A DNA stretch of 64,000 bases, taken from assembly GCF_004786015.1 (NCBI RefSeq), contig NZ_CP032096.1, forward strand, positions 1 to 64,000, given 5' to 3'. The stretch is from Hydrogenovibrio crunogenus. GTDB lineage: Bacteria > Pseudomonadota > Gammaproteobacteria > Thiomicrospirales > Thiomicrospiraceae. The notes below the pieces were generated by a model that saw only the letters and a list, made by a program, of their open reading frames with translations, searched no databases and had not been told where the DNA came from. How positions within the stretch are numbered: position 1 is the stretch's first letter; each line of letters starts with the position of its first letter. The position numbers and the translations under genes were made by a program. This document shows, piece after piece, positions 24,271 through 51,946 of this stretch.

Positions 24271-24280
24271 CCAGGCCTGG
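24271..24280. repeat. CCAGGCCTGG copy in the divergent tsaC/deacetylase interval
   Basis: Exact core, flanked by imperfectly complementary AAAATGA and CTATTTT. It lies 65 bases before tsaC and 84 bases before the likely deacetylase start, so it is upstream of both genes and cannot be a normal terminator of either. Confidence 0.8.
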
Positions 24281-24364
24281 CTATTTTGCGACAAGGATAG
24301 GTTTTCAATTAAAATCTTGTACAATCAACCATATGCAAAAAATAACGTTAAATGGATAAATTTT

Positions 24365-25516
24365 ATGTCGGCAGCACAAAAATTACATTCGATTGTGACC
24401 CGTAACCCCCTCTTGTTTTTAAGTGGCATCGGCACGTTGATTGTCTTCATTTCCACATTCGTCTTTTTGACTTCTAACGCGACACCTCCTCCAAAACAAG
24501 CCGTTTCAGACCAAGCACCATCGCCAGTTGAACATTCAAATAGCGCAGTGATTTTAATTTACCACCACTTTGGAAAGAACGAATACCCAAGCACCAATAT
24601 TCGCTTGGCACAATTTGATGCTCAACTGGACTACTTGGAGCAAAACCAGTTTAACGTCTGGTCCTTGTCTCAGCTGGTCACAGCGTTAAAAAATCAAACC
24701 CCTATTCCAGAGAAAACGGTGGTTTTTACCATTGATGATGCCTGGAAAAGCGTCTATACAGAAGCGTTTCCGCGTTTTAAAAAACGAGGATGGCCGATGA
24801 CGGTTTTTGTGAATACCGATGCCATCGATAAAGGGTATCAATCGAATATGACATGGGAACAAATGCGAGAAATGCAACAATATGGCGCAGAATTCGCCAA
24901 CCATGCTAAAACCCATCAGAAACTGGTTCAGCAACCTGATGAATCTTATGATACTTGGAAAACACGGGTGACACAGGAAATTAAGGTGGCGCAGCAACGC
25001 TTAAAATCCGAACTCGGCGAGCAGACGAATCAAACCAAGTTGTTTTCTTATCCTTATGGCGAATATTCTGAAGCGCTAGCCAACCTTGTTCAAAAAATGG
25101 GCTATGTTGGAATCGCTCAAAACTCGGGGGCTGTGGGGTATCAATCTGACTTAAGAGCACTCATGCGGTTTCCAATGAGTGAAGTTTATGCCGACATGGA
25201 TGCTTTCAAATTAAAGGTGAATACCCATGTGTTTCCGGTCAACAAAATCACCCCCTTTGATCCGGTCATCACTGAAAATCCTCCTAAAATGATTTTAGAA
25301 TTCGCCAACCCTCCCCAACGCAACATTCAGTGCTTTAACCAACATGGGGAGCCTTTATTGCTGAACTGGGCCAGCGAAACCCGCTTGGAGGTCACCAGTG
25401 ATGCACCACTCGACCCCCCTCGAAGCCGCTATGCCTGTACCCAAATGATGCCCAACGGTGATTGGCGTTGGATAAGTCATGGCTGGGTTATATCCCATAA
25501 AAATAACATGGATTAA
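24365..25516 (+). CDS. Polysaccharide deacetylase (CE4), membrane anchored
   Basis: Carbohydrate esterase 4 protein that removes N-acetyl groups from a periplasmic or exported glycan. From ATG 24365 it has 383 residues with an N-terminal membrane anchor (about 14-38). The catalytic motifs are VVFTIDDAW (metal and base Asp) and the metal ligands of FANHAKTHQ (H-x3-H). The layout resembles IcaB/PgaB-type deacetylases. A frame back to 24224 exists, but it covers the CCAGGCCTGG site and gives an unusual N-terminus. The last about 100 residues, Pro-rich with three Cys, are not recognised. Confidence 0.82.
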   Translation: MSAAQKLHSIVTRNPLLFLSGIGTLIVFISTFVFLTSNATPPPKQAVSDQAPSPVEHSNSAVILIYHHFGKNEYPSTNIRLAQFDAQLDYLEQNQFNVWSLSQLVTALKNQTPIPEKTVVFTIDDAWKSVYTEAFPRFKKRGWPMTVFVNTDAIDKGYQSNMTWEQMREMQQYGAEFANHAKTHQKLVQQPDESYDTWKTRVTQEIKVAQQRLKSELGEQTNQTKLFSYPYGEYSEALANLVQKMGYVGIAQNSGAVGYQSDLRALMRFPMSEVYADMDAFKLKVNTHVFPVNKITPFDPVITENPPKMILEFANPPQRNIQCFNQHGEPLLLNWASETRLEVTSDAPLDPPRSRYACTQMMPNGDWRWISHGWVISHKNNMD

Positions 25517-25966
25517 ATTCATAATCGTTTCACATTTGATATCAGAGTCCATGCTCAAATAACAGTAAGTTATTTATTTAATTAAAAAATTCGGAAATCT
25601 CGGTAAACGTCATCCTGATATTGGGCGGAGAGAAATGTCAGCATACTCGCGCCCTACTTTGATTGGATTGAAAACAAGTGGCTTTTCTGACAAATATCCT
25701 TGTAGGGTATGAAAAATATTAAGATTGAACTTAACCAACAATCACCAACATAAAGCAATCTAAGTTAAACACATTAAGGCCTTTAAGACCTTTCTGAATC
25801 AGGGTTTCCTTTAATTTTTCAATAAGTTAGAGAGAAAAATAGTCGAAAAAACTTTACTTGCCTAAGTATATTTATGTACAATTAAATTTTATGAATAACC
25901 GAAATTTTATAGAAAAATTAAGCTCTTACCGATGAATGATAAATGCTGATAAATGACCCTTAAAAA
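25517..25966. other. 450-base non-coding interval
   Basis: No supported gene. It holds the 3' flank of the deacetylase gene and an AT-rich leader of the GGDEF gene. A GGGC/GCCC pair around 25623-25655 could form a weak hairpin. I see no riboswitch that I can name; a GEMM-type c-di-GMP element was looked for because of the gene downstream but not found. Confidence 0.5.
25853..25882 (+). promoter_or_regulatory. Candidate sigma-70 promoter of the GGDEF gene
   Basis: TTTACT (25853-25858) and TACAAT (25877-25882) have an 18-base spacer and lie about 85 bases before the GGDEF start. Confidence 0.4.
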
Positions 25967-27238
25967 ATGATCAAACCAATTCTTTTCAATACAAATAACC
26001 TTCTCACAATCAGTGCATTTATATTAGTATTGTTTTTGGTTTCAATTCTCGTTTTCAGTGCCAAGCAATTAACCAACAATAGCCTGGAACATACCTCCCA
26101 AATTATCGTTTCTCAATACCAAAAACTCCATAATTTACTCAACTTACATATCCACGGTCAAAAGCGGACCATTCAACTGGAACGTATTTACTTACAGGAA
26201 GACCCCTTTGAAAAAGATGCCGCTTTAATGGATTTCTACCGGGATGGCGGAAACTATATGATCTACCGTAACCAGTTAGCGCTTTTAGTCAGTGGCAATC
26301 CTGCTGAAACGAAGTGGTTAGAAGAAATGAACGCTCTTGCTCGCGTGACTTCCCCGATACAAAAGCGCGTGGCCCAATTGGGCATGAATGGCGAAGCATC
26401 AAAAGGCAAAGAAATACTCATGACCCAGGCCCTTCCTCGTTTAGAGCAGTTTAGCCAAAGAGTCAATGAGTTTTCTTTATTTCAGGCTCAAGAAATGAAA
26501 AATCTCATTGCGGACTCTAAAGTACGTGTGGATCAATTGATGCACAACATTCTCACCGTGGCTGGCTTATTAATTTTAGTAAGTTTGGCTTTTGCCATGA
26601 TGATTACGCGTAAATTCAACCACATCAACCAACAACTGAAAATCAGTAATGGAACACTTGAGCAGGAAGTCCGTTCCCGCACCCAAAAGCTCAGCAAAGC
26701 AAGAGAAGACCTTCTGCATAAAAACAAAATATTGGAACAACTCTCCACTACGGACCCTTTAACTCAGCTTTGTAATCGTTTAAAAATCGAACGTGTTTTG
26801 GAAGATTTACACCAAAAATATGAAGACGAACACCAAATATACAGCTTATTGCTGATTGATATTGATTGCTTTAAAAAGATCAATGATACACATGGGCATA
26901 CGATAGGCGATGAAGTCTTGAAAGAGCTTTCAGAACAGCTTAAACAATCTTTTGCCCAACATAGCCACATTGGACGATGGGGCGGAGAAGAATTCATTGT
27001 TATTTTAGAAAATGAAGACTTACAACAAGCCGTTTCTGCAGCCGAAGCGTTCCGCCAACATATAGAAAACACTTCTTTCATTGAAGTGGGTAACCTCACT
27101 GTTAGTATCGGAGTAGCCACTGTGAAAGCAAACCAAACCATTTCTGAACTCATTCATTCAGCCGATTTAGGACTATACGAATCCAAACATGCCGGTCGTA
27201 ATCGTGTGACGGTTTATTCTAATGACGATTCCACATAA
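25967..27238 (+). CDS. Membrane-bound diguanylate cyclase (GGDEF)
   Basis: Makes c-di-GMP from two GTP. 423 residues: membrane helix at about 13-32, a helical periplasmic sensor domain to about 190, a second helix near 195-215, a coiled coil, and a GGDEF domain (about 255-420). The active-site motif is GGEEF at 339-343, preceded by LLLIDIDCFKKINDTHGH. The residues five before the motif do not form RxxD, so no product-inhibition I-site is seen. The ligand of the sensor part is unknown. An EAL enzyme lies 8 kb away and could oppose it. Confidence 0.92.
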   Translation: MIKPILFNTNNLLTISAFILVLFLVSILVFSAKQLTNNSLEHTSQIIVSQYQKLHNLLNLHIHGQKRTIQLERIYLQEDPFEKDAALMDFYRDGGNYMIYRNQLALLVSGNPAETKWLEEMNALARVTSPIQKRVAQLGMNGEASKGKEILMTQALPRLEQFSQRVNEFSLFQAQEMKNLIADSKVRVDQLMHNILTVAGLLILVSLAFAMMITRKFNHINQQLKISNGTLEQEVRSRTQKLSKAREDLLHKNKILEQLSTTDPLTQLCNRLKIERVLEDLHQKYEDEHQIYSLLLIDIDCFKKINDTHGHTIGDEVLKELSEQLKQSFAQHSHIGRWGGEEFIVILENEDLQQAVSAAEAFRQHIENTSFIEVGNLTVSIGVATVKANQTISELIHSADLGLYESKHAGRNRVTVYSNDDST

Positions 27239-27303
27239 TCACATCTGTAATATCAGTCAAACCAGACAAGAGACGCTTTGTTTAGTTTAGCAATGAAAAC
27301 TCT

Positions 27304-27702
27304 ATGAAAATTTATATCAAAGCCGCAATCATATGGTGTTTGATTGTATTAATGGCCATTTTAAATGGCGCATTCAGAGAATCGATTCTAAACCCAGTAT
27401 TCGGTGACAAAATAGCCTTACCGCTCAGTGGTCTTATCTTATCAGTCATCATTATTGTCATCAGTTATCTGCTTATTAACTGGTTAAAAGCGACGGATCC
27501 ACAAACTTATCTCAAGGTTGGTCTTTTTTGGGGGAGCCTCACCATTGGGTTTGAATATGGATTGGGCTATTTTGTCTTACACCAACCACTTGACGACATT
27601 CACCAAGTATTTAACCTACAACAAGGTAATTTATTTGCATTGGCTCTATTAACCTCTACCATCTCTCCTTGGCTGGTGGCCAAAATAAAACACTTGATTT
27701 GA
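27304..27702 (+). CDS. Small four-helix membrane protein, unknown
   Basis: Not recognised beyond a small integral membrane protein of 132 residues with four predicted helices (about 7-24, 38-60, 70-90 and 105-125). Hydrophilic residues LNGAFRESILNP follow helix 1 and HQPLDDIHQVFN lies between helices 3 and 4. The frame is open with gene-like composition and ends 7 bases before the LysE gene, so the two are probably cotranscribed. Function unknown. Confidence 0.65.
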   Translation: MKIYIKAAIIWCLIVLMAILNGAFRESILNPVFGDKIALPLSGLILSVIIIVISYLLINWLKATDPQTYLKVGLFWGSLTIGFEYGLGYFVLHQPLDDIHQVFNLQQGNLFALALLTSTISPWLVAKIKHLI

Positions 27703-27709
27703 CGACAAA

Positions 27710-28351
27710 ATGCCATTCGATACCTTTGTTTCTTTTACTTTAGTCATGTTCTTACTGGCCCTCTCTCCAGGACCCGATAATCTTTATGTATTAATGCAAT
27801 CTGCACTTTATACACGTATAGCGGGCATCTGGGTAACTCTCGGCTTATGTACGGGGTTAATTGTTCATACCCTAGCTGCGGCTTTGGGTATTACGATGAT
27901 CTTCCAGACGTCTGAGATCGCTTTCACATTGTTAAAAATACTGGGCGCAGGCTATCTGTTCTTCCTAGCCTGGAAAAGCTATCAATCAGGCGCGTTTCAT
28001 CTAAAAAACAATTCAGTCAGCACATTATCTGCCATTCAATTGTATCAACGTGGCATTTGGATGAATCTCACCAACCCGAAAGTCTCCATTTTCTTCCTCG
28101 CCTTGTTGCCACAGTTCATAGATACCAGTGCGCGTTCGGTCTCTCAACAAATGCTCATGCTTGGCAGTATCACGATTATGGTGACACTGATGGTTTTCAG
28201 CAGCATTGCAATGTTGGCTGGATTTGCAAAAAACTGGATTCAATCTGAAAAAATACAACGTAGCTTACATAAAATTGCCGCTCTGATCTTACTAACCATC
28301 GCATTGAAACTCCTCATCAGCCTGCCATATGATCTGTTGGAGACCTATTGA
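27710..28351 (+). CDS. LysE/RhtB family amino-acid exporter
   Basis: Inner-membrane translocator of 213 residues with six helices. The family signature is near the start: LALSPGPDNLYVLMQS. A Gly/Leu-rich second helix follows, and the conserved WMNLTNPKVSIFFLALLPQF lies in the middle. Members export amino acids such as homoserine, threonine or lysine; the substrate here is unknown. It follows the small membrane protein by 7 bases. Confidence 0.9.
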   Translation: MPFDTFVSFTLVMFLLALSPGPDNLYVLMQSALYTRIAGIWVTLGLCTGLIVHTLAAALGITMIFQTSEIAFTLLKILGAGYLFFLAWKSYQSGAFHLKNNSVSTLSAIQLYQRGIWMNLTNPKVSIFFLALLPQFIDTSARSVSQQMLMLGSITIMVTLMVFSSIAMLAGFAKNWIQSEKIQRSLHKIAALILLTIALKLLISLPYDLLETY

Positions 28352-28453
28352 TTTCACACAACTTTAACCACCCCATTTTGTCATTTTAGGTAAAATAAAT
28401 AAAAATGCTTATTTATAATCAGGTTCGGGAATATACCGATTGAGGATAGCACT

Positions 28454-29851
28454 ATGACACCGATTCAATCCTTTGGAGCAGCAGAAACCGTGACGGGCTC
28501 CTGTCACCTTTTACAACTCAAACAAGGACCTCAAATCCTAATCGATTGTGGCATGTTTCAAGGATATGCTGAAAAACGTGCTTATGAAGACTTTGGGTTT
28601 GATCCTAAAAAAATCGATGTTTTGCTAATTACACATGCCCATCTGGACCATGTTGGGCGCATTCCAAAACTGGTTAAGGAAGGCTTTAAAGGCCGTATTA
28701 TCAGTTTAAGAGCCACCATTGATATCATGGAAGTGATTCTATTGGACAGTGCAAAGATTATGCACGAAGATTACAAAACGGCGTTCAAAAAAGCGCAGCG
28801 TCGTGGAGAGGAAGACAAAGTCACCCTACCACTGTATACCCTTGAAGATGTTCAATCAGTCTTTGACTTAGACATTCAGTATGCCGAGTATGACCAACCG
28901 ATTGTCATCAATAAAGACGTGAAAGCCACTTTTAGAAATGCTGGACATATTTTAGGCTCCTCAACCATTCAAGTTGATTTTAAAGAAGAACAACAAAGCA
29001 AAACCATCGTTTTTTCAGGCGACTTAGGCAATGACGAAGATGTCATCATGCCGCCACCAGAATCGGTTCAAAATGCGGATGCGCTTTACATTGAATCCAC
29101 GTATGGAGATCGAAATCACCGTGCTTTAGAAGGCAGTATCCAAGAGTTTAAAGAAGCCGTCATCAACACCTTAATGAATCAGGGGAATGTTTTAATCCCT
29201 TCTTTTGCGGTAGAACGTTCACAGGAAATTTTACTGTTGCTCAAACAGATGTATTACGATGATGAGCTTCCGCCTTGTAAAATCTTTTTAGACTCTCCCA
29301 TGGCCATCCGAGCCACCGATATCTATAACCAATACCATGAAGAGCTGAATGAAACTGCGAATGACTTCATCAAAAAGGATGGATCCGTTTTCGATTTTCC
29401 GCCTTTGGAATATACTCTAAAAGGGTCAGATTCGATGAAAATCAACGATGAAGAATCCGGCTGCATCATCATTGCAGGCAGCGGTATGTGTAGTGGCGGT
29501 CGCATTCTGCACCACTTCAAACACCGGTTATGGAATGCTCGCAACAGTGTTATTTTTGTTGGCTATCAAGCCCAAGGAACTCTCGGCCGTTTAATGGTGG
29601 ATGGCGCTGAAGAAATCCGAATTTATCGAGAAACCATCAAAGTGCGGGCAAAAATGTACATGATTAATGGCTTTTCTGCCCATGCGGATCAAGGCGAGCT
29701 TTTGAATTGGATTGGAAACTTTAAAAAACTCGATAAGGTGTTCTTGATTCATGGTGAACGAGACAAACAAGAAATTTTTAAAACCGCCATTGAAGAACGG
29801 TTCCATAAAACCGTTCATATTGTTGAATATGCAGAAGAAGTCTGGATTTAA
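28454..29851 (+). CDS. Beta-CASP metallo-beta-lactamase-fold hydrolase
   Basis: 465-residue member of the MBL-fold family with the RNA specificity (beta-CASP and RMMBL) domains. These are usually nucleases related to CPSF73. Zinc ligands are in THAHLDHVGR (near residue 60) and the second site lies in NAGHILGSS and SGDLGND. The beta-CASP part holds IPSFAVERSQEILL and IIAGSGMCSGGRILHH, and the C-terminal motif is GFSAHADQGEL. A GAGGA site precedes the ATG. Bacterial substrates of this subgroup are not well known. A LapA-like gene follows closely. Confidence 0.88.
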   Translation: MTPIQSFGAAETVTGSCHLLQLKQGPQILIDCGMFQGYAEKRAYEDFGFDPKKIDVLLITHAHLDHVGRIPKLVKEGFKGRIISLRATIDIMEVILLDSAKIMHEDYKTAFKKAQRRGEEDKVTLPLYTLEDVQSVFDLDIQYAEYDQPIVINKDVKATFRNAGHILGSSTIQVDFKEEQQSKTIVFSGDLGNDEDVIMPPPESVQNADALYIESTYGDRNHRALEGSIQEFKEAVINTLMNQGNVLIPSFAVERSQEILLLLKQMYYDDELPPCKIFLDSPMAIRATDIYNQYHEELNETANDFIKKDGSVFDFPPLEYTLKGSDSMKINDEESGCIIIAGSGMCSGGRILHHFKHRLWNARNSVIFVGYQAQGTLGRLMVDGAEEIRIYRETIKVRAKMYMINGFSAHADQGELLNWIGNFKKLDKVFLIHGERDKQEIFKTAIEERFHKTVHIVEYAEEVWI

Positions 29852-29877
29852 TCAAATCATTACAAAGAAGAGCGCAC

Positions 29878-30105
29878 ATGAACAAAGCAAAATCGATTCT
29901 TTCTATCATTCTAGTGACGGTATCTGTCATTTTTTTATTGCAGAATATGGTCACCGTGAAAATTGAATTTTTAATCTGGAGTTTAACGGTTCCTAGAGCC
30001 TTGCTAGTGGTTATCTTAATTGGAATCGGCTTTATTATTGGCTTACTGTTTTCTAATTATTCTAACCATCATAAATTACCGAACCCTCCTGCGGATAATT
30101 CATAA
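29878..30105 (+). CDS. LapA-domain (DUF1049) small membrane protein
   Basis: 75-residue protein with two membrane helices (about 7-22 and 40-60) separated by VTVKIEFLIWSLTVPRALLV. This strand-like element and its position match the LapA/DUF1049 family, some members of which take part in lipopolysaccharide assembly. It lacks the longer cytoplasmic coiled coil of E. coli LapA and lies 26 bases after the beta-CASP gene, probably in one operon. Confidence 0.75.
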   Translation: MNKAKSILSIILVTVSVIFLLQNMVTVKIEFLIWSLTVPRALLVVILIGIGFIIGLLFSNYSNHHKLPNPPADNS

Positions 30106-30129
30106 AAATACTTTCAAGGAAAAATACTC

Positions 30130-30849: not shown

Positions 30850-30865
30850 TCAGGTTTTAAATTGA

Positions 30866-32041: not shown

Positions 32042-32097
32042 CGCTCTTTTCCTTTCATATAGAGGTTGATAAAAACACCCTTCCCCGTCAAAATCGG

Positions 32098-32107
32098 CCA
32101 GGCCTGG
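32098..32107 (-). terminator. CCAGGCCTGG copy after the chemoreceptor gene
   Basis: Exact core lying 7 bases beyond the stop of the chemoreceptor gene, read on the - strand, followed there by CCGATTTTG. Stem extension is one G-C pair and a G-T wobble. It also lies just upstream of the DUF3095 gene. Confidence 0.5.
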
Positions 32108-32113
32108 CTATAA

Positions 32114-34993: not shown

Positions 34994-35157
34994 CGGGTTT
35001 GTTCCTTAAAATTTCTTCGTTGAATGTTCAATGAAACAGCATGTTGTTGATTGAAAATACAAGACTCACTTGCATCAAACCTTGTACTTAGAGGCGGTTT
35101 TCGGGGAACTATAATGGTATAAATACTTAAAAGCAATTACTTTAAAAGTTACTACTA

Positions 35158-35174: not shown

Positions 35175-35277
35175 AATTGATTGGAATAAGAAAAAAAGTA
35201 TGAAGGTTATCTATATATAAAAATAGAAACTGATTGAAGTGATAAAAACATGGTTTTGTATAAAAGGATATAAGGTA

Positions 35278-40242: not shown

Positions 40243-40268
40243 AAAAACCGCCAGGCCTGGCGGTTTTT
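40243..40268. terminator. Bidirectional CCAGGCCTGG terminator
   Basis: A 26-bp perfect palindrome: AAAAACCG, core 40251-40260, then CGGTTTTT. It lies between two convergent genes and has a T tract on both strands. Confidence 0.9.
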
Positions 40269-41041: not shown

Positions 41042-41198
41042 AGAACCCCCTTTTTTCTTATCGTCATTGGGAAGTTAAGCGATGATATTATTAAGTGCTT
41101 ATATTTTTGTTACATCAATATAACAATACAGACCGATAAATACTAAAAAACTTGCTGTTTTTTCTATAGAATTTTTTGATTACGAGATTAGTTTTGTC

Positions 41199-42119: not shown

Positions 42120-42203
42120 CCCAAACCGTCCTAAGAAAAGGTTAAAATTACGACTTAATAAACGGCGATATTTTAGCATAATCCTTTAGAGGCAAAGCAT
42201 TCA

Positions 42204-45026
42204 ATGACTCAAATCCTTCCTGAATTCAATCCAGACAGTCCTTTTATCTTAGTTGACGGTTCGTCTTATCTGTTCCGGGCGTTTCATGCCATGCCGCCGC
42301 TTACCAATTCAAAAGGACATGCCACTGGGGCCATTTTTGGCGTCATCAACATGATTGGAAAACTATTGGAACAATACCAGCCCGAGCGTATTGCGGTGGT
42401 GTTTGATGCCAAAGGGAAAAATTTTCGCCATGAAATGTATGAGGACTATAAAGCACATCGCCCACCAATGCCGGATGAGCTCCGCATTCAAATTGAGCCG
42501 ATACATGACATCATCAAGGCCTTAGGCATTCCTTTGTTGGTGATTGATGGCGTGGAAGCGGATGACGTCATGGGCACGCTGGCACACCAGGCCACCCAAG
42601 CCAAAATGGATGCCTTGCTGTCCACCGGTGATAAGGATATGGCGCAATTGGTGAATGAACACATCACTCTTGTTAACACGATGAATGATACGTTGATGAC
42701 ACCCGACAGTGTGTTTGAAAAGTTCCACGTGAAACCAGAACAGATTATTGATTACCTCGCTTTGATGGGTGATAGCAGTGATAACATTCCTGGCATCCCG
42801 AAGTGTGGCCCTAAAACAGCGGCAAAATGGATTGCGGAATATGGCTCTATTGAGAATTTGATTGAGCATGCGGATGAGATTAAAGGCAAAATTGGTGAAA
42901 ACTTGCGTGCCAATCTGGAGCAATTGAAACTGTCTCAACAGTTAACCACCATTCGTTTGGATTGTGACTTACCAATCGCACTCAATGACATCAAACGCCA
43001 TGAAGCGGATATGGAGGCACTGGAAGCACTATTTTCTGAATATGACTTACGCAACTGGTTGACCCGCGTATTAAAAGGCGAATTGCCTTTTAGTAAAAGC
43101 AGTGGCCGTAAAGCGCACTCTGAAACCGTCACCAACGGTCAATCTAAAAAAGCACCCAACCCTGCTTCAACTACTGACACACTTGAAATCACCTCCGAGC
43201 CTTATGAAACCATTCTCGACTGGACAACTTTCGATGCCTGGCTCAAAAAATTGGAAGCCGCAGACGTTTTTGCCATTGATACCGAAACCACTTCTTTAAA
43301 TGCGATGGAGGCGAAAATTGTCGGTGTCAGTTTCGCCTATGCAGAAAAAAACGACCAGGCCTGGCAGAATTTCGCGGCCTATGTCCCTTTAACCCATGAT
43401 TATGATGATGCGCCGGAACAGTTACCATTGCAGGAAGTCTTAGCCAAACTGAAACCGCTTCTGGAAAATCCGGCCATCAAGAAGGTCGGCCAGAACTTCA
43501 AGTATGACTGGCACATATTCAAAAATGTGGACATTGAAGTCCAAGGCATGGCGTATGACACCATGCTGGAATCCTATTGTTTTAACAGTGTCGCTACCCG
43601 CCACAATATGGATGACTTGGCACTGACTTATTTAAACCACAGTACGATTCAATTTAAAGACATTGCCGGTACGGGGAAAAAACAAAAAACCTTCAATCAG
43701 ATTGAACTGGAAACGGCGTCACCTTATGCCGCGGAAGATGCGGACATCACGATGCAATTGCATCAAACCCTATTACCGAAGTTACAAGCAGAGCCGACGC
43801 TGAACAAAGTCTTTGAAGAAATTGAAATGCCGTTAATGCCCGTGTTGGCAAAAATGGAACGTAATGGTGTGTTGATTGATCGTCAAATGCTGGCAGACCA
43901 GTCTTATGAACTGGGACAAAAACTCACTGAGTTGGAGCAAAAAGCGCATTTAATCGCCGGCACCCCATTCAATTTGAATTCCTCCAAACAATTACAAGAA
44001 GTATTGTTTGAACGTCTAGAACTCCCAATTGTGAAAAAAACGCCAAAAGGACAACCTTCTACTGCAGAACCGGTGTTAGTGCAATTGGCTGAAGACGGCC
44101 ATGAAATGCCAAACCTGATTCTGGAATATCGCAGTTTGGCCAAACTGAAGTCCACCTACACCGATTCTTTACCGAAACAAATCAATGAGCACACCGGTCG
44201 AGTTCATACCTCTTACCAACAAGCGATAGCCTCAACCGGGCGTTTATCTTCAACAGAACCCAATCTACAAAATATTCCGATTCGAAGCGCCGAAGGCCGA
44301 CGTATCCGCCAGGCATTTATCGCTCAACCCGGTTATCGTTTGATGGCTGCCGATTACTCGCAAATTGAATTGCGTATCATGGCACACCTATCAGGCGATG
44401 CGAGTTTATTAAAAGCGTTTGCCGAAGGCAAAGATATCCATCAGGCAACCGCGGCTGAAATTTTTAACATGCCTTTAGAAGAAGTCACTTCTGAACAACG
44501 CCGCAGCGCCAAAGCGGTGAACTTCGGATTGATTTATGGCATGTCGGCCTTTGGGTTGGCAAAACAACTTAATATCAGCCGAGGGTTGGCACAGGAATAT
44601 ATCAATCTCTACTTCGCACGTTATCCCGGCGTCGCAGATTATATGGAATCGACCAAGGACAATGCCAAGCAAACCGGTTATGTAGAAACTTTGATGGGAC
44701 GTCGACTATATTTACCGGATATTAATGCCAAAAATGGTCAGTTAAGACAGTATGCAGAAAGAACGGCCATCAATGCCCCGATGCAAGGCACTGCCGCCGA
44801 CATCATCAAAACCGCCATGGTAAAAATGCAGCAATGGCTCGATCAGACCGATTGTGACATTAAAATGTTGATGCAAGTGCATGATGAATTGGTATTTGAA
44901 GTGGCTGAAGCGGATATGAACCAAGCCAGAAAAGAAATCAAAACCATTATGGAAGCGGCTTTAAAGCTCGATGTGCCCTTGATTGTTGAAATTGGTGATG
45001 GTCTGAATTGGGATGAAGCACATTAA
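42204..45026 (+). CDS. polA: DNA polymerase I
   Basis: Repair and Okazaki-fragment polymerase of 940 residues. It has three parts: the 5'-3' exonuclease (about 1-300), the 3'-5' exonuclease (about 330-520, with D359 in AIDTETTSL), and the family A polymerase. Polymerase motif A has D717 in ADYSQIELR, motif B is RRSAKAVNFGLIYGMSAFG, and motif C has D894 in VHDELVFEV. All catalytic residues seem present. One exact CCAGGCCTGG copy lies in frame at 43355-43364 and encodes part of NDQAWQN. Confidence 0.98.
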   Translation: MTQILPEFNPDSPFILVDGSSYLFRAFHAMPPLTNSKGHATGAIFGVINMIGKLLEQYQPERIAVVFDAKGKNFRHEMYEDYKAHRPPMPDELRIQIEPIHDIIKALGIPLLVIDGVEADDVMGTLAHQATQAKMDALLSTGDKDMAQLVNEHITLVNTMNDTLMTPDSVFEKFHVKPEQIIDYLALMGDSSDNIPGIPKCGPKTAAKWIAEYGSIENLIEHADEIKGKIGENLRANLEQLKLSQQLTTIRLDCDLPIALNDIKRHEADMEALEALFSEYDLRNWLTRVLKGELPFSKSSGRKAHSETVTNGQSKKAPNPASTTDTLEITSEPYETILDWTTFDAWLKKLEAADVFAIDTETTSLNAMEAKIVGVSFAYAEKNDQAWQNFAAYVPLTHDYDDAPEQLPLQEVLAKLKPLLENPAIKKVGQNFKYDWHIFKNVDIEVQGMAYDTMLESYCFNSVATRHNMDDLALTYLNHSTIQFKDIAGTGKKQKTFNQIELETASPYAAEDADITMQLHQTLLPKLQAEPTLNKVFEEIEMPLMPVLAKMERNGVLIDRQMLADQSYELGQKLTELEQKAHLIAGTPFNLNSSKQLQEVLFERLELPIVKKTPKGQPSTAEPVLVQLAEDGHEMPNLILEYRSLAKLKSTYTDSLPKQINEHTGRVHTSYQQAIASTGRLSSTEPNLQNIPIRSAEGRRIRQAFIAQPGYRLMAADYSQIELRIMAHLSGDASLLKAFAEGKDIHQATAAEIFNMPLEEVTSEQRRSAKAVNFGLIYGMSAFGLAKQLNISRGLAQEYINLYFARYPGVADYMESTKDNAKQTGYVETLMGRRLYLPDINAKNGQLRQYAERTAINAPMQGTAADIIKTAMVKMQQWLDQTDCDIKMLMQVHDELVFEVAEADMNQARKEIKTIMEAALKLDVPLIVEIGDGLNWDEAH
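43355..43364. repeat. CCAGGCCTGG copy inside polA
   Basis: Exact core within coding sequence, with no complementary flanks, so it is not a terminator. It encodes Gln-Ala-Trp in the exonuclease domain. Confidence 0.85.
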
Positions 45027-45124
45027 AGTTGAATTATCTTATTTTATATCTGTTATTTAACCGATTATTTGATAGAATTTTTTTAACCAACCCCTTATTT
45101 ATACGTAATACAATGGAGATTCCC

Positions 45125-46393: not shown

Positions 46394-46422
46394 TCAAGCC
46401 TGATAATCTTTTTAAACCCATT

Positions 46423-46454
46423 AAACCCCCTGTAATTTTTTAGGGGGTTTTTTG
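46423..46454 (+). terminator. Intrinsic terminator after the TraF_2-like gene
   Basis: AAACCCCCT (46423-46431) pairs with AGGGGGTTT (46442-46450) and is followed by more T. Confidence 0.9.
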
Positions 46455-46485
46455 TCTCATTCGTTATTATTTAAAGGAAAATATC

Positions 46486-47214
46486 ATGCTGAAAAAACTT
46501 TGTTTCATAGGATTTATTTTTCCTGCCTTGGTTTCAGCAGGGACAAATAATATTGATTATTTAAACTTTGAGAGCCAATCTCAATTCAAAGAATTTGCAA
46601 AAGACCTGACGGGCGCTTTATCTGTAAAAACACTGGAACCTGCTGAACCTCTAGGGGTTTCAGGGTTTGATATTGGAATATCCTATAATTTATCGCAATT
46701 TAAATACGATCATATGGATCGTGTTTCCAATAACGGTAAATCGTCTTTAGATACCTTTACCATTCACGCTGTCAAAGGCCTGCCTTTTGGGGTCGATTTT
46801 GGCATCAATTACACTAAATCTCCTGGCAGTAATATTGAAACCTGGGGCGGTAAACTCAGTTATGCTTTAATTGAAGGAGGGGCTTTATACCCAGCGATTG
46901 GCATCAGTGGTAATTATGCTCAAACCAGTGGGATCGATGCTTTGAAGTTTAATAGTTTTGGTGCAGAAGTCGGTGTTTCAAAAGGCTTTGCAAATTTCAC
47001 GCCTTATGCCGCTGTTGGAATGGTCAATGGGGAAACCCAACCTGAAGAGCTAAATTTAGGCCTGGCAGGTTCAAACCTTAAGAACGAATCGGTTTCAATG
47101 GCGAAGTTTGCTGTTGGGGTCAACATTAACTTATTGCTAATGGATGTTCTGGTTGGTTATAACCAAATTGGGGAAGTTGGAACCTATTCCTTAAAAGCCG
47201 GTTACCGTTTTTAA
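46486..47214 (+). CDS. Outer-membrane beta-barrel protein, unknown
   Basis: 242-residue exported protein with a signal peptide ending near ALVSAG. An acidic N-terminal segment (about 20-55) precedes a series of amphipathic strands such as GFDIGISYNLSQF, GVDFGINYTK, and the terminal SLKAGYRF with a final Phe, the usual barrel sorting signal. I do not recognise the family. It follows the TraF_2-like gene past a terminator. A near-copy of the dispersed palindrome (TTAGGCCTGG) lies inside at 47056-47065. Confidence 0.62.
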   Translation: MLKKLCFIGFIFPALVSAGTNNIDYLNFESQSQFKEFAKDLTGALSVKTLEPAEPLGVSGFDIGISYNLSQFKYDHMDRVSNNGKSSLDTFTIHAVKGLPFGVDFGINYTKSPGSNIETWGGKLSYALIEGGALYPAIGISGNYAQTSGIDALKFNSFGAEVGVSKGFANFTPYAAVGMVNGETQPEELNLGLAGSNLKNESVSMAKFAVGVNINLLLMDVLVGYNQIGEVGTYSLKAGYRF

Positions 47215-47236
47215 TCAAAACCGATCCTTTTTATAG

Positions 47237-47258
47237 AAACGCCCAGGCCTGGGCGTTT
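47237..47258. terminator. Bidirectional CCAGGCCTGG terminator
   Basis: A 22-bp perfect palindrome: AAACGC, core 47243-47252, then GCGTTT, followed by more T. It lies between the convergent barrel and engB genes. Confidence 0.88.
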
Positions 47259-47259
47259 T

Positions 47260-47898
47260 TTATGACTTTTTTGTCTCCGGCTGATTCTTAACAGGCCGTT
47301 CGTATTCCATCCACTCATCCAGCTTAGCCCAGACTTCATCCAACCCTTGTCGTTTTAAAGAAGAAAACAACTGCACCGTTGCATGCGGGTACTTTTCACT
47401 CAACAATTGTCGCATCTTTAACAAACTGTTTTGCGCCGGCCCTTTTTTCAATTTATCAGACTTCGTCAATAAAATATGTACGGGTAAATTCAGTGTCAGC
47501 GTCCAATCCAGCATCATCAAATCAATTTCAGTCGGAGGCATTCTTGAATCCACCATCATCACCAACCCTTTCAAAGACGCTCTAACTTCAATGTATTCCG
47601 ACAAACTTCTTTCCCAGGCACGTTTTGTATTCACATTGACTTTGGCATACCCATAACCAGGCAAATCCACTAATTTACGTTGTTCATCACATTCAAAAAA
47701 ATTAATTAGCTGTGTTCTTCCCGGTGTTTTACTGGTTTTAGCCAACCCTCTTTGTGAGGTAATCACATTTAAAGCGCTGGACTTACCGGCATTGGAACGC
47801 CCGGCAAAAGCGACTTCATAGCCGAAATCTTCTGGACAATGTGACAAATCGGGAGCCGATTTTAAATAAGTTGCTTGTTGGTAAAGTGGATGTTGCAT
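47260..47898 (-). CDS. engB: Ribosome biogenesis GTPase EngB (YihA/YsxC)
   Basis: Essential-type GTPase that acts in 50S assembly. 212 residues with G1 GRSNAGKS at 33-40, the G2 region KTPGRTQLINFF, G3 DLPGYGYA, and G4 TKSDKLKKG. The engB gene lies two genes from polA, as in other gammaproteobacteria where the two are often neighbours. The Spot 42 RNA found between them in enterics was looked for and not seen. Confidence 0.96.
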   Translation of the reverse strand: MQHPLYQQATYLKSAPDLSHCPEDFGYEVAFAGRSNAGKSSALNVITSQRGLAKTSKTPGRTQLINFFECDEQRKLVDLPGYGYAKVNVNTKRAWERSLSEYIEVRASLKGLVMMVDSRMPPTEIDLMMLDWTLTLNLPVHILLTKSDKLKKGPAQNSLLKMRQLLSEKYPHATVQLFSSLKRQGLDEVWAKLDEWMEYERPVKNQPETKKS

Positions 47899-48001
47899 AA
47901 GGTGGGTTGCCTGTTGGTTAGGTTTTCATTCTTTATCAATAGTGTGAATCGGTATATACTTTACAATCTTTTTAAATGACTATTAAGAATATTTAATTTA
48001 T

Positions 48002-49996
48002 ATGACCGAATTATCCAACACTTCAAGCCCATTACCAAAGCGTAAGCCTGGCATTTTTATCCAATTTTTAGGCTCCATGAATTTGGCGGTTACCTTATTG
48101 GTGATGTTGGCTATTGCGTCAGTTATCGGGACAGTTCTACAGCAAAATCAAGTTTTCCAAGATTATATTATAAAATTTGGACCTTTCTGGACTCAAGTTT
48201 TCAACGAACTGGGACTATTCCATGTTTATGGCGCAGCTTGGTTTATTTTGGTTCTATTGTTCTTATTAATCTCCACCAGTGTATGCGTCAGTCGAAATGG
48301 CCCCACTTTTTTAAAAGAGATCAAACAATACAGTGAAAAACTGTCATTAAATGCTTATAAACATCAACCGCATTCGTTAACCTACACTCCAGAATCTTTC
48401 GATACGGAAACTGCTCAAGCCATCTTAAAACAGCAAGGCTATAAAACGAAAATTCATCAACGAGAAGATGGGGTGACCGTTGCTGGTTTGAAAGGTCGTT
48501 GGAATCGTTTAGGGTATATTTTCACTCATATTTCGATTATCGTAATCTGTATCGGTGCTTTATTTGACAGTAATTTATTATTGAAATACCGCGAATTGAC
48601 AGGCAACTTAGCACCTGAAACTCGATCTGTCAGCTTGGATAAAATTCCTCAAAAATCATGGTTAGGTCCTGAAAACTTTTCATTCCGTGGATCGGTCAAT
48701 ATTGCGGAAGGTCAAAAATCGGATGTGTTGTTTTTACCTTATGAACGTGGTTTTTTAGTCCAGAAATTGCCTTTTACCATTGATGTTAAAGACTTCCGTA
48801 TTGAGTATTACGATACAGGGATGCCAAAATCTTTTGAATCCGATATCGTTTTAAGTGCGCCTGATTTAGACAAACCGATTGAAAAAACCATTGCGGTCAA
48901 TCACCCATTGTTTTATAAAAATTACGCCATTTATCAATCTTCTTTCGGCGACGGGGGGAGTTTGATGAAATTGAAAGTGCACCCGCTTCTGTCTCCTACC
49001 AACAACCCGCTCACATTAAATACGGCGGTCGATAAGGTGGAACCGCTGAAAACCCCAATGGGCACTTATCGTTTAGAGTTAAACGATTTTAAAATGTTCA
49101 ACATTGTGCCGGCCAGTGACGAAGAAAAAGCCAAAACCGGTAAAAAAATGCATAACAATGGCCCGACCATTATCTTTAAAGTTCGTAATGAACAAGGGAA
49201 GGCATGGGAATATGAAAACTATATGCAACCGAGCTTACAGGATGGTCGTTGGTTCTTTATGACAGGTATGAGAACCTCTCAAGCCGAACCTTTCCGCTAT
49301 TTATTTATTCCAGCCGACGCACAACGTCAAAAAACACGTTTCTTTAACTTTTTAGCGTTAATCAATAACAAGAATAAAGCACAAGAGGTATTACAAGACG
49401 CTTTCCCGAAAGCCAATAATATTGATGATCGTACTTATCAGCTCCAAATGCGTTTGTTAAACCAATTGATGGTGCTGTTCCGTCAAAAAGGGTTCAGTGG
49501 CATCAGCCAATTTGTGCAGAAAAATGTGCCGGAAAAAGATCGCTCTAAAGTAAAAGATTACTATATGGGTCAAACAAGTTTGGCGCTGCAAACGCTTTAT
49601 TTAGAGATTTTAAAGCAGGAAAAAGTGAAAGAGCTGGACGATATTTCTGACTTTAATAAACAATGGTTTGAAGATGCCCTAACGGTCATTAACAGCTTGC
49701 CGAACTATGGTCCGCCAATGTATTTTGAATTGGATTCCTTTAAACAAATCGAATCCACAGGGTTACAAATTACGAAATCCCCTGGAAAAGATATCGTTTA
49801 TTTTGGGAGCGCTTTACTTATAATTGGGGTCTTCTTCTTATTCTATGTACGTCAAAAACGCATTTGGTTAGCTTATTCTGAAAAAGAAGGGACTTTAACC
49901 ATTGCAGGAAAGGATAATAAAGAACTGCCTGAAGTGGCAAAAGAATTTCAACAAATTGTACAAGCGGTACAATCTAAAATGCAGGTGAAGTCATGA
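48002..49996 (+). CDS. resB: Cytochrome c biogenesis protein ResB (CcsB/Ccs1)
   Basis: Half of the system II cytochrome c synthase that moves haem out and attaches it to apocytochromes. 664 residues. Three helices lie in the first third (GSMNLAVTLLVMLAIASVIG at about 25-44, then near 80-100 and 170-190). A large periplasmic domain follows, and a last helix (about 600-618) precedes a short cytoplasmic tail. Overlaps ccsA by 4 bases; dsbA follows. Use of system II rather than Ccm is notable for a gammaproteobacterium. Confidence 0.93.
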   Translation: MTELSNTSSPLPKRKPGIFIQFLGSMNLAVTLLVMLAIASVIGTVLQQNQVFQDYIIKFGPFWTQVFNELGLFHVYGAAWFILVLLFLLISTSVCVSRNGPTFLKEIKQYSEKLSLNAYKHQPHSLTYTPESFDTETAQAILKQQGYKTKIHQREDGVTVAGLKGRWNRLGYIFTHISIIVICIGALFDSNLLLKYRELTGNLAPETRSVSLDKIPQKSWLGPENFSFRGSVNIAEGQKSDVLFLPYERGFLVQKLPFTIDVKDFRIEYYDTGMPKSFESDIVLSAPDLDKPIEKTIAVNHPLFYKNYAIYQSSFGDGGSLMKLKVHPLLSPTNNPLTLNTAVDKVEPLKTPMGTYRLELNDFKMFNIVPASDEEKAKTGKKMHNNGPTIIFKVRNEQGKAWEYENYMQPSLQDGRWFFMTGMRTSQAEPFRYLFIPADAQRQKTRFFNFLALINNKNKAQEVLQDAFPKANNIDDRTYQLQMRLLNQLMVLFRQKGFSGISQFVQKNVPEKDRSKVKDYYMGQTSLALQTLYLEILKQEKVKELDDISDFNKQWFEDALTVINSLPNYGPPMYFELDSFKQIESTGLQITKSPGKDIVYFGSALLIIGVFFLFYVRQKRIWLAYSEKEGTLTIAGKDNKELPEVAKEFQQIVQAVQSKMQVKS

Positions 49997-51168
49997 GTAC
50001 AATGAATTCTTCTATGGAAATGGATCAATTAAAAAAACCTTTTTCCATTAGCGATATGATCTGGGCAGTCTTAGTCATTGCCGGTGCAGCTTATGCTTGG
50101 CAAAGCTTTGGCCAATTAATGGATGTTTACGAAGTGGGCATTTTAGCCGGTACTGCCGTGGGTCTGATTGCATTAGGTAAAATCTGGCCAAGTATTAAAA
50201 CACTGTCTTATGCGGTGGCTGCTTTAAGTTTATTGGCTCTATGGACTTACAGTCATCATGGCAATCAAATTTCTGCCAATGAACAAGCGTTCTTTTTAAA
50301 GTTCTTGATTTCAAGCCAATCCGCTTTCATGTGGATGAGTGCTCTATTCGTATTGGCGACCGTTGCTTACTTTCTAGCACTATTTTCTAAATCCAATTAT
50401 GTCGGTAAAGTAGCCAGTGCCATTGCTTGGTCAGGCGTTGCTTTTGGGTTGGTTGGTATGATGGTTCGCTGGCGTGAATCTTATCTTATCAATCCGGATT
50501 ATGGCCATATTCCAGTCAGCAGTTTATATGAAGTCTTTATCTTATTTGCAGTACTGACAACTTTAATTTATTTGTACTACGAGCAAAAGATGCGTACCCG
50601 TTCAATGGGTGGATTTGTCATGCTGATTGTCAGTGCCTCCATTGCTTTTTTACTTTGGTATACCTTTAACCGTGAAGCTCATGTGATCCAACCTTTAGTG
50701 CCGGCTTTAAAAAGTTATTGGATGAAAATACATGTGCCCGCCAATTTCGTTGGGTATGGCGCTTTTTCAATTGCAGCCATGGTCGGTCTTGCTTATTTAG
50801 TTACTGAAAAATTTCAAACCAAAAACCCAGATTCACAATTTGTAAAATCTATGCCTAGCTTGGAAAGCATGGATGATCTAATGTACAAAACCGTTGCATT
50901 AGGCTTTGCTTTTTTCACCATTGCAACTGTATTGGGTGCCATGTGGGCAGCCGAAGCCTGGGGCGGTTATTGGTCTTGGGATCCTAAAGAAACCTGGGCA
51001 TTGATTGTTTGGTTAAACTATGCCGCTTGGTTACATATCCGTATGTCAAAAGGCTGGCGTGGTCGTCCAATGGCATTATGGGCGCTAGTTGGCTTATTAG
51101 TGACCACATTCGCTTTCCTAGGCGTTAATATGTTCCTATCCGGTCTGCATTCTTACGGTGAACTTTAA
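49993..51168 (+). CDS. ccsA: Cytochrome c biogenesis protein CcsA/ResC
   Basis: Haem-handling partner of ResB in system II, 391 residues with about ten helices. The tryptophan-rich haem-binding signature WGGYWSWDPKETWAL starts at W323. The flanking helices carry conserved His, as in VPANFVGYGAF upstream and HSYGEL at the end. Starts inside the resB stop (ATGA), so the pair is translationally coupled. The dsbA gene follows 22 bases later, which would supply oxidised thiols for periplasmic cysteines. Confidence 0.95.
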   Translation: MSTMNSSMEMDQLKKPFSISDMIWAVLVIAGAAYAWQSFGQLMDVYEVGILAGTAVGLIALGKIWPSIKTLSYAVAALSLLALWTYSHHGNQISANEQAFFLKFLISSQSAFMWMSALFVLATVAYFLALFSKSNYVGKVASAIAWSGVAFGLVGMMVRWRESYLINPDYGHIPVSSLYEVFILFAVLTTLIYLYYEQKMRTRSMGGFVMLIVSASIAFLLWYTFNREAHVIQPLVPALKSYWMKIHVPANFVGYGAFSIAAMVGLAYLVTEKFQTKNPDSQFVKSMPSLESMDDLMYKTVALGFAFFTIATVLGAMWAAEAWGGYWSWDPKETWALIVWLNYAAWLHIRMSKGWRGRPMALWALVGLLVTTFAFLGVNMFLSGLHSYGEL

Positions 51169-51190
51169 TTTTTAAAACTTAGGAAATTCG

Positions 51191-51814
51191 ATGTTAAGAA
51201 AATTTTTCATTACCAGTCTACTTATTTTAAGTTTTGGCATTCAACCTGCACTGGCAAATGAGGCATTTGGTATTGCAGAGGGTGAAGAATATAAAAAAAT
51301 TCCAACCCCTCAATCTATTGCTCCAAATGAAAAAAAGGTTGTTGAAGTATTTTATTATGGCTGTCCTCACTGTTACGAATTAGAAAGCAGTGTGCACCAA
51401 TGGCTTAAAAATAAACCGAAAGAAGTGCATTTTGAACGTATGCCCGCTGTATTGAATAACCCGAATTGGGTGTTTATGGCCCGTGTATTCTATACGGCTA
51501 AATTTTTAGGCATTGAACAGCCTTTCCATACAAAATATTTTGATGCGATTCAACGAGATCGTAAGCCTATTTTCAATGTCGATGCATTGGCAAAATTTGT
51601 TGAACCAATGGGCATCAAACCGGATGCTTACAAACAAATGTTCAACAGCTTCCAAGTGACCAGTGCGGTTTCTCGTGCAAAACAAATGACTCAAAACTAC
51701 GGTATTGACGGTGTTCCTGCAGTCATTATCAATGGAAAATATTTGACTGATGTGCCTATGGCATCATCTCGTCAAGCGCTTTGGAAGGTGGTTAACCAAC
51801 TTCTCAATAAATAA
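51191..51814 (+). CDS. dsbA: Thiol:disulfide interchange protein DsbA
   Basis: Periplasmic oxidase that introduces disulfides. 207 residues with a signal peptide ending near PALANE, a thioredoxin fold with active site C58-P-H-C61 (FYYGCPHCYE), and the cis-Pro loop GVPAVIINGKY. An AGGAAA site precedes the ATG. Linked to the resB-ccsA genes, which depend on the thiol state of apocytochromes. Confidence 0.96.
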   Translation: MLRKFFITSLLILSFGIQPALANEAFGIAEGEEYKKIPTPQSIAPNEKKVVEVFYYGCPHCYELESSVHQWLKNKPKEVHFERMPAVLNNPNWVFMARVFYTAKFLGIEQPFHTKYFDAIQRDRKPIFNVDALAKFVEPMGIKPDAYKQMFNSFQVTSAVSRAKQMTQNYGIDGVPAVIINGKYLTDVPMASSRQALWKVVNQLLNK

Positions 51815-51828
51815 CGATTTAAATTTAA

Positions 51829-51854
51829 GAATACCCTTTTCCTCTAGGGTATTC
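51829..51854 (+). terminator. Terminator-like hairpin after dsbA
   Basis: GAATACCC (51829-51836) pairs with GGGTATTC (51847-51854) over 8 bp with a 10-base loop. The following sequence is C/T-rich rather than a T tract. Confidence 0.6.
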
Positions 51855-51936
51855 CTCCCCTTTCTCCAACGCTAATTTTGCGCTCCAACACTTTTTAAGT
51901 TTATAATCGGCCTAACGCAAAATACATTAAAACTTA

Positions 51937-51946
51937 CCAGGCCTGG
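51937..51946. repeat. CCAGGCCTGG copy upstream of the acetolactate synthase gene
   Basis: Exact core, 33 bases before the next start codon and 123 bases after dsbA, beyond the dsbA hairpin. Flanks do not pair, so it is not a good terminator. Confidence 0.8.

Follow-up and report, generated by a model that had tools for sequence, protein, structure and literature searches.

A ten-base palindrome, CCAGGCCTGG, recurs in the 64,000-nucleotide stretch of Hydrogenovibrio crunogenus DNA analysed here (the window), and at three places it stands where a terminator can hardly explain it. This raises the question of what the word does. The first-pass annotation had listed copies at 24271-24280, 43355-43364 and 51937-51946, had described their flanks as weakly paired or unpaired, and had favoured a role at the DNA level.

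The three sites and the other copies in the window

All three exact copies are real (like all copies below, they are listed without strand). RNA folding at the three sites gave z scores of -0.68, -0.13 and -0.20, no better than shuffles, in agreement with the weak pairing described for them. In contrast, the hairpin-type copies at 40251 and 11851 gave -3.92 and -3.13. The copy at 43355-43364 lies inside polA (42204-45026, + strand), in the frame K-N-D-Q-A-W of a variable-length loop, and does encode Gln-Ala-Trp, as had been read from the sequence. It is kept in the relatives G003, G007, G002 and G009, where the surrounding codons have changed; in the other 11 of 15 relatives the word is absent at that place. 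At 51937-51946 the word follows a DsbA-like gene (51191-51814, +) and precedes a TPP-enzyme gene (51979-53622, +), both named from Pfam, and 32 bases separate position 51946 from the ATG at 51979. The orthologous intergenic region contains the palindrome in G002, CCAGGTTGGG in G010 and CCAGGCTGGG in G004, so that each of the four species has its own word there.

The placement of the copy at 24271-24280 (flanks AAAAATGA...CTATTTT) depends on a start codon. A Sua5/YrdC-family gene (23645-24205, -) lies on one side of it; on the other is a polysaccharide-deacetylase gene (+) that probably starts at 24365. Under the mechanical open reading frame 24224-25516 the copy would be inside the latter gene (KNDQAWLF), and our own gene caller agreed. 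However, the G010 and G004 orthologues have no counterpart of the N terminus of that frame. Therefore, a start at the downstream in-frame ATG, 24365, with the copy lying between two divergent genes and upstream of both, as originally proposed, is likelier than a copy inside a gene. No alignment spans 24271.

The annotation had allowed that its reading would fall if these were the only non-terminator copies and were not conserved, and neither is the case. The copies at 3876-3885 and 32098-32107, both between tandem genes, also have just one paired flanking base, and the polA copy and the 51937 region are kept or re-spelled in relatives. Another tandem intergenic copy, at 6006-6015, has A/T tracts and a mismatch adjoining the word. 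Terminator-type hairpins are formed by the tandem intergenic copy at 11851-11860 (8 extra pairs) and by the convergent copies at 40251-40260 (8 extra pairs), 47243-47252 (6 extra pairs) and 56579-56588 (8 extra pairs). Those at 40251 and 47243 are kept in G002, and the one at 56579 has the one-mismatch form CCAGGCTTGG in G003. The G003 region orthologous to 47243 has the word, though away from the aligned position.

Abundance, selection and placement of the word

In the window 10 copies are exact and 3 have one mismatch, compared with a mean of 1.24 in all over 100 shuffles. Across the whole 2.45-Mb genome (labelled G000; G001 onward are relatives) the word occurs 367 times and the reversed word, a control, not at all. 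Like known uptake sequences, it is thus present in hundreds of copies, far above chance. We sampled stretches of 864 kb and 32 kb, about 37% of the genome, plus small loci from searches. The 864 kb contained 120 exact copies against 0.84 expected under an order-4 Markov model. One-mismatch forms numbered 54 against 19.1 expected, with the outermost base changed in 38 of the 54 (these figures, and those for tracts and spacing below, come from samples or from among the first 100 copies listed). The palindrome is the centre of a longer unit, AAAAAYRR-CCAGGCCTGG-YYRTTTTT.

About 54 of the 120 copies are coding and 66 non-coding, with 24271 taken as non-coding; these classes come from our own scoring of reading frames rather than from annotation and carry its errors, of which 24271 is one known case. 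In 53 coding copies, A at positions -8 to -4 was found, frame by frame, in 106/140, 52/85 and 33/40 cases (against 41.5, 25.1 and 11.4 expected), and the T tract was likewise conserved in each. The presence of the A/T tracts in all three reading frames argues that selection acts on the DNA. When coding copies of G000 were compared with G002, all 4 testable ones were kept, whereas only 476 of 9523 control 10-mers (5%) were identical; in the reverse direction, 4 of 7 were kept. In orthologous intergenic regions the word was in both genomes in 5 cases, in G000 only in 0, in G002 only in 1 and in neither in 20 (p = 9e-5; in our own set, loci L249 and L141 have 8 kb in common). The DNA-level role thus gains support well beyond the three copies, from the tracts, the kept polA copy, the re-spelling at 51937 and the many copies without a hairpin described next. 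By sequence comparison the word is a genome-wide DNA-level signal, present in genes and at gene ends and kept at orthologous sites, and uptake sequences are likewise found both in genes and between them under selection at the DNA level.

At least four contiguous extra pairs adjoin the word in 39 of the 120 copies; the other 81 are without them, even with G-T pairs allowed. Some of those 81 could still form imperfect hairpins. Convergent gaps hold 31 of 65 classified intergenic copies but only 14% of intergenic bases (p = 1e-10). Divergent gaps are avoided, with 2 of 65 copies against 24% of bases (p = 4e-6, with 24271 taken as divergent). By form and position, many gene-end copies are terminator-like, as are the inverted pairs or hairpins of uptake sequences at gene ends. 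The suggestion that the copies at 24271 and 51937 affect transcription of their neighbours found no support: besides the avoidance of divergent gaps, promoter scans at both sites stayed near shuffle level. Copies per genome quarter were even (22/31/28/29), with no focus at ori or ter. Gaps shorter than 1 kb were rare in our own genome (2 versus 13.3 at random), and this deficit was absent in the G002, G010, G004 and G001 samples.

Dialects in the family and the competence machinery

Among 34 family genomes examined, 15 had 263-747 copies of the palindrome and 19 had 0-37. The distribution is patchy: most of the g2, g3 and g7 genomes examined have 0-8 copies. Three congeners with 0-1 copies (G001, G004 and G010), which form one clade (99/99), have another word, CCCCA(A/G)CCTGGYAGATTTT. 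Allowing at most one mismatch, CCCARCCTGGCAGATT occurs 373 times in G001, 347 in G004 and 337 in G010, and 0-1 times in each of the other 52 genomes. The dialect word, CCCCARCCTGGYAGATTTT, is asymmetric and not a palindrome; it is about 18 bases long, including a T-rich tract 3-4 bases past the core. Neither strand is much favoured (196/177, 195/152 and 186/151 copies in G001, G004 and G010). Both dialects contain the half-site CCTGG-Y-N-R-W-TTTT. By sequence comparison a sister clade thus spells the signal differently, throughout its genomes and in a way specific to the clade; dialects that follow clades and have a core in common are a feature of uptake sequences.

Within the asymmetric dialect, intergenic regions of G010 and G004 had the word in both genomes, the first only, the second only and neither in 4, 1, 0 and 16 cases. 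Co-location across dialects was weak: the same counts were 2, 2, 1 and 23 for G000/G010 (p = 0.045), 1, 1, 2 and 11 for G000/G004 (p = 0.37) and 0, 1, 0 and 4 for G000/G001. No coding copies were common to both dialects in these comparisons (0/9, 0/4 and 0/5). In the asymmetric clade 6 of 49 sampled intergenic copies were divergent, a weaker avoidance than in our own genome. Close inverted pairs of the second word numbered 4 in the G010 sample, 1 in G001 and none in the G004 sample, all of them intergenic, between tandem or convergent genes. The T tracts pointed outward in 3 of the 5 pairs and inward in 2, which therefore have no T tail. Word lists drawn from samples of G008 (60 kb), G018 (180 kb) and G012 (73.8 kb) yielded nothing on a par with the palindrome, and the G016 sample (60 kb) was examined for two words only. 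The top-listed repeats in G005, G016, G018 and our own locus L136 proved to be local arrays. One word in G012, TTTCACGTG, resembles parS.

ComEC was found in 54 of 58 family genomes, so that carriers and non-carriers cannot be told apart by it. A ComEA-type match was present in 12 of 12 chosen genomes, wordless ones included. Its score was discarded as a carrier marker: it was 80-93 bits in 8 carriers and 48-59 in the wordless G008, G012 and G018, but 48 in the carrier G033. The evidence from pili is mixed. Matches to a retraction-type (PilT-size) ATPase were missing in the word-rich G002 and G015. The shared pilus locus is MSHA-like, and our own genome has prepilin genes at 528-533 kb. A search of the prepilin genes for a receptor pilin, such as those of the ComP or ComN/PpdA type, gave no candidate tied to the word; one 187-aa pilin had matches in 12 of 12 genomes searched, and its sequence looked too acidic for a DNA receptor.

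A probable uptake sequence, its alternatives and its counterparts

Uptake sequences have been described for Neisseriaceae (PMC3630211) and Pasteurellaceae (PMC12616744, PMC1852404, in the text available), and among the open-licence papers searched none joins Hydrogenovibrio or Thiomicrospira with "uptake sequence". We consider it probable that CCAGGCCTGG, together with its two flanking A/T tracts, serves this Hydrogenovibrio lineage as its DNA uptake sequence, a lineage-specific "self" tag for natural transformation with dialects. Against this reading weigh the weak co-location across dialects, the ComEC and ComEA-type genes of wordless genomes, the missing PilT-size matches and the MSHA-like pilus locus, the two pairs with inward T tracts, the absence of the spacing deficit in four relatives, and a copy number and palindromic form that differ from those of known uptake sequences. 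The palindrome, the commonest form of the uptake-type word, is probably ancestral. The transformation machinery would read it through a DNA receptor, probably a surface protein of pilin type. Incoming DNA with the word would be preferred, and the words would thus spread by biased uptake and homologous recombination. A change in receptor specificity would move all sites together and so give rise to dialects. The palindrome consists of two of the shared half-sites, overlapping head to head, which would allow the receptor to read DNA in either orientation or as a dimer.

It is unlikely that the word is instead bound all over the chromosome by a cytoplasmic protein that associates with the nucleoid, organises the chromosome or takes part in recombination. 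The palindrome and symmetric A/T tracts would suit a dimer, and the regular spacing in our own genome and the DNA-level conservation fit as well. However, the word is even over the chromosome and has no focus at ori or ter, in which it differs from parS, matS and SlmA sites. Chi and KOPS are strand-biased, and we rejected an oriented chromosome signal of this type because the strand counts of the asymmetric dialect differ so little. The change of spelling to an asymmetric 18-mer within one genus and the patchiness of the palindrome over the family also speak against a cytoplasmic reader. We give very little credence to a HIP-like palindrome that owes its origin and upkeep to a DNA methyltransferase with mismatch repair linked to it. 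Like HIP1, the word is highly iterated and deviates mostly at the outermost base, and some species have other palindromes in place of HIP1 (PMC4390886, available parts). Our own genome also has two C5 methyltransferase matches at 420-422.5 kb. We nevertheless rejected the methylation reading, because the C5 methyltransferase family PF00145 is absent in the palindrome-rich G005, G013 and G015 and the word that replaces the palindrome is asymmetric.

The enrichment in convergent gaps and the 39 copies with added pairs would suit a favoured terminator hairpin and nothing else. Such a word should consist of paired stems with T tracts at gene ends; instead, 81 copies have no such stem, about 54 are genic and spread over all three frames, and coding copies are conserved, which rules out the hairpin as sole function and leaves that reading hardly credible. 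Equally implausible is a transcription-factor operator acting on the genes beside 24271 and 51937. Its palindromic shape and two copies upstream of genes are outweighed by the avoidance of divergent gaps and by a copy number in the hundreds, with many copies inside genes or at their ends, and we rejected it on these grounds.

If the word is an uptake sequence, a wider picture can be drawn, which we regard as possible rather than probable. The family may have its own DNA-uptake code, independent of those of Neisseriaceae and Pasteurellaceae, with an ancestral palindrome that is read symmetrically; a dimeric receptor carried by an MSHA-type pilus may be what reads it. One Hydrogenovibrio clade would then have switched to an asymmetric dialect sharing one half-site, and would thereby be sexually isolated from its sister species. 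The two known cases would be joined by a third of separate origin, among free-living sulfur-oxidising chemolithoautotrophs, and one could ask which traits such codes have in common (short core and T tract, gene-end hairpins, dialects). The switch from palindromic to asymmetric within one genus would offer a natural test of a receptor and hundreds of sites changing together, and of dialects as species barriers.

To our knowledge, the DUS words of Neisseriaceae are not palindromic. The Hydrogenovibrio word is a different one, palindromic as a whole in most carriers and flanked by A/T tracts, and we found no ComP. As far as the available text of PMC3630211 goes, the DUS is likewise an over-represented short word, genic and intergenic, with clade-specific dialects that are congruent with phylogeny and have a core in common. 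It reaches about 900-6000 copies (about 1900 in 2.2-2.3 Mb) compared with 263-747 here. Close inverted DUS pairs associated with terminators are reported, and the second word of G010 and G001 also forms intergenic inverted pairs. In Simonsiella, overlapping DUS pairs are in dyad symmetry, with 1294 occurrences of simDUS and kingDUS (PMC3630211). HIP1 of cyanobacteria is also a palindrome iterated genome-wide, with outer-base deviations and another word in some relatives. Its alternatives, in the parts of PMC4390886 available, are palindromes, each accompanied by a methyltransferase that matches it; the word that replaces ours is no palindrome and has about 18 bases with a T tract, and C5 methyltransferases, the type searched for, do not co-occur with the word. 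The USS of Pasteurellaceae has an unrelated core and is stated not to be palindromic (PMC12616744, PMC1852404), whereas the palindromic form here has an A/T tract on both sides. In the same sources, as far as available, the USS resembles our word in having a core, a few bases and then a T-rich tract (eHin-USS AAAGTGCGGTCAATTTT; PMC12616744), two dialects divided by subclade, and an association with terminators.

Abundance and placement of the palindrome

The three copies of the ten-letter palindrome CCAGGCCTGG that the first-pass annotation had placed at 24271, 43355 and 51937 are exact. The window holds 10 exact and 3 one-mismatch copies, and shuffles of the window gave a mean of 1.24 in all. 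The Hydrogenovibrio crunogenus genome (G000; 2,453,259 bp, a single contig that begins with the window) has 367 copies of the word and 0 of the reversed control word. Position classes and densities were taken from an 864-kb sample of this genome, including the window. The sample contains 120 exact copies, where an order-4 Markov model predicts 0.84, and 54 one-mismatch forms, where it predicts 19.1. The outermost base deviates in 38 of these 54.

Gene classes come from our own open reading frame calls, under which 55 of the 120 copies lie in genes (54 if site 24271, whose placement is ambiguous, is intergenic), 31 in convergent gaps, 32 in tandem gaps, 1 in a divergent gap, and 1 at a stretch end. 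Intergenic DNA has 0.82 copies per kb, and genes have 0.069 per kb. Convergent gaps, which make up 14% of intergenic bases, are enriched, with 31 of the 65 intergenic copies. Divergent gaps, at 24% of these bases, are avoided, with 2 of the 65 (24271 included). At least four contiguous extra base pairs adjoin the word in 39 of the 120 copies. They are absent from the other 81, some of which may still form imperfect hairpins. Because these 81 are the majority, the three sites, singled out earlier as copies that cannot be terminators, are ordinary members of that class.

The copies are spread evenly over the chromosome, with 22, 31, 28, and 29 in its quarters (40 stretches of the genome). The first 100 are spaced more regularly than random (coefficient of variation, 0.78 versus 0.98; 1% of simulations were that low). 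Gaps shorter than 1 kb number 2 versus 13.3 expected in our sample of G000 and 1 versus 4.7 in the relative G005; this deficit was not seen in the samples of G002, G010, G004, and G001. The one stretch of the 40 without a copy (20 kb, at 340 to 360 kb) covers the ribosomal-protein operon region; judged by eye from their N termini, its genes encode ribosomal proteins, elongation factors, and RNA polymerase. The widest interval between any neighbors of the first 100 copies (39 kb) includes this stretch.

Other repeats were also seen in the sampled stretches. From position 5663 of stretch L136 (about 105.7 kb in G000) runs a tandem array with a 306-base period and 18 marker copies, of which the 8 listed are all 306 apart; it looks like a long repeat-protein gene. 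Stretch L188 of G005 has, from 1103, an array whose units recur every 60 bases and are separated by sequences that differ; this may be a CRISPR array. Stretch L221 of G018 has an 11-base unit in a tandem array from 9889.

A longer DNA signal and its retention in relatives

Non-coding copies in G000 share the consensus AAAAAC.G-CCAGGCCTGG-C.GTTTTT, and the same A/T tracts, weaker, flank the coding copies. Among 53 coding copies, A occupies positions -8 to -4 in 106/140, 52/85, and 33/40 cases in the three reading frames, where codon-position composition predicts 41.5, 25.1, and 11.4. The DNA-level role proposed for the word is supported. Because the A tract is independent of reading frame, the signal is not a protein motif; it is DNA, and is longer than the word itself.

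The nearest polA matches are a CG07 metagenome-assembled genome (91%) and Hydrogenovibrio sp. SC-1 (89%), followed by further Hydrogenovibrio and Thiomicrospira strains. On the question of whether relatives keep the polA copy (43355), G003 and G007 do so, both encoding KNDQAW. G002 (NSQAW) and G009 (NGQAW) also have it, within a loop of different length. It is missing at this place from the other 11 of 15 relatives, three of which (G005, G006, and G013) have a copy elsewhere in polA. In sampled orthologues, G002 retains 4/4 coding copies of G000 (control 10-mers, 476/9523 identical), and G000 retains 4/7 of those of G002. The corresponding counts with G005 are 2/5 and 2/7 (controls, 148/6830). 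Between genes, the orthologous regions of G000 and G002 comprise 5 with the word in both, 0 with it in G000 alone, 1 with it in G002 alone, and 20 with it in neither (p 9e-5); the samples of G003, G007, G005, G013, G015, and G033 were too small for this comparison.

Two dialects in one family

Fifteen of the 34 family genomes examined have 263 to 747 copies of the palindrome, and 19 have 0 to 37. The 21 genomes outside the family have at most 35, and the one with 35 has 10 of the reversed control word. Four genomes of the same genus as G000 have 0 or 1 copies. In three of these (G001, G004, and G010) a different, asymmetric word is over-represented, CCCCA(A/G)CCTGGYAGATTTT. Its 16-base core with at most 1 mismatch has 373, 347, and 337 matches in them, respectively, and no more than 1 in any of the 52 remaining genomes. 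The polA tree groups these three (support 99/99), with G008, which lacks both words, as their sister (97/98). The palindrome is probably the ancestral form, because its carriers are spread over several other branches of this midpoint-rooted tree, which has three open forks and some long branches.

Common to both dialects is CCTGG-Y-N-R-W-TTTT. The strict half-site CCTGGYNGWTTTT has 49 to 370 matches in G013 and the carriers of genus g1, and 4 to 19 in genus g6. Palindrome flanks differ in G015, the sole g6 genome profiled, and vary by lineage, being roughly ttT.ACCAGGCCTGGT.Aaa in the G005 sample and TTACCAGGCCTGGTAA in that of G033. The lineage-specific flanks in the G005, G013, G015, and G033 samples suggest sub-dialects.

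The gap of site 51937 carries CCAGGCCTGG in G000 and G002, AAAATCTGCCAGGTTGGG in G010, and AAAATCTGCCAGGCTGGG in G004. G010 and G004 share the word in 4 intergenic regions (1 and 0 unshared, 16 empty), in each of which either genome keeps its own A or G spelling. Sharing across dialects is weaker: 2 regions for G000/G010 (2 and 1 unshared, 23 empty; p 0.045), 1 for G000/G004 (1 and 2 unshared, 11 empty), and 0 for G000/G001 (1 and 0 unshared, 4 empty). No coding copy was common to both dialects in sampled orthologues (0/9, 0/4, and 0/5). Copies of the asymmetric word also occur in opposite orientation 20 to 30 bases apart, forming hairpins, four times in the G010 sample and once in that of G001; the G004 sample had no such close pairs. 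All five pairs sit between tandem or convergent genes, with the T tract outward, terminator-like, in 3 and inward in 2. The literature describes inverted pairs at terminators for the uptake sequences of Neisseriaceae (DUS; PMC3630211) and Pasteurellaceae (USS; PMC1852404).

Competence machinery and known uptake sequences

Of 58 family genomes, 54 encode ComEC (PF03772). A ComEA-type domain was matched in all 12 genomes chosen, 10 of them above the cut-off. G000 has what we take to be a T2SS, an MSHA-like pilus locus, and a Tad-type locus, as well as a PilT-size ATPase. The PilT-size match was not found in G002 and G015, and one ATPase match in G015 has an internal stop. Among the ATPase/secretin locus types seen, the MSHA-like locus is the only one common to the nine word carriers examined (the G015 match is weaker), and is also present in the wordless G008, G012, and G018. 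No receptor for the word could be named from this search of competence and pilus machinery. Separate from the MSHA-like locus (about 719 to 731 kb), stretch L199 (7393-12985; 527 to 533 kb in G000) encodes three prepilin-signature proteins, a response regulator, a histidine kinase, and a 335-aa pilin-like protein without a Pfam match. It is a possible home of a DNA receptor. Two C5 DNA methyltransferase matches lie at 420028-422498 in G000, in opposite orientation with about 470 bases between them; a search of 12 genomes did not find this family in 7.

The open-licence literature contained nothing pairing Hydrogenovibrio or Thiomicrospira with an uptake sequence, and papers mentioning both Hydrogenovibrio and natural transformation concerned, by title, carbonic anhydrases and synthetic biology in cyanobacteria and algae. 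Among the matches listed, no open-licence paper with CCAGGCCTGG was on bacterial uptake, judged by title and abstract start, and a broader open-licence search likewise gave no report of the word among the matches listed.

We consider it quite likely, from sequence comparison, that the palindrome and its dialects are the DNA uptake sequence of the Hydrogenovibrio lineage, and do not claim this membership as proven. They resemble DUS and USS in most points: a genome-wide DNA word is re-spelled by clade but keeps one half-site, T tracts accompany it, hairpins occur where genes end, and divergent gaps are avoided. We know of no other class that combines these features. According to Frye et al. (PMC3630211), Simonsiella has 1294 occurrences of simDUS and kingDUS as overlapping dyad-symmetric pairs, which may indicate dimer-based recognition. 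The fully palindromic Hydrogenovibrio word would be an extreme case of such pairs.
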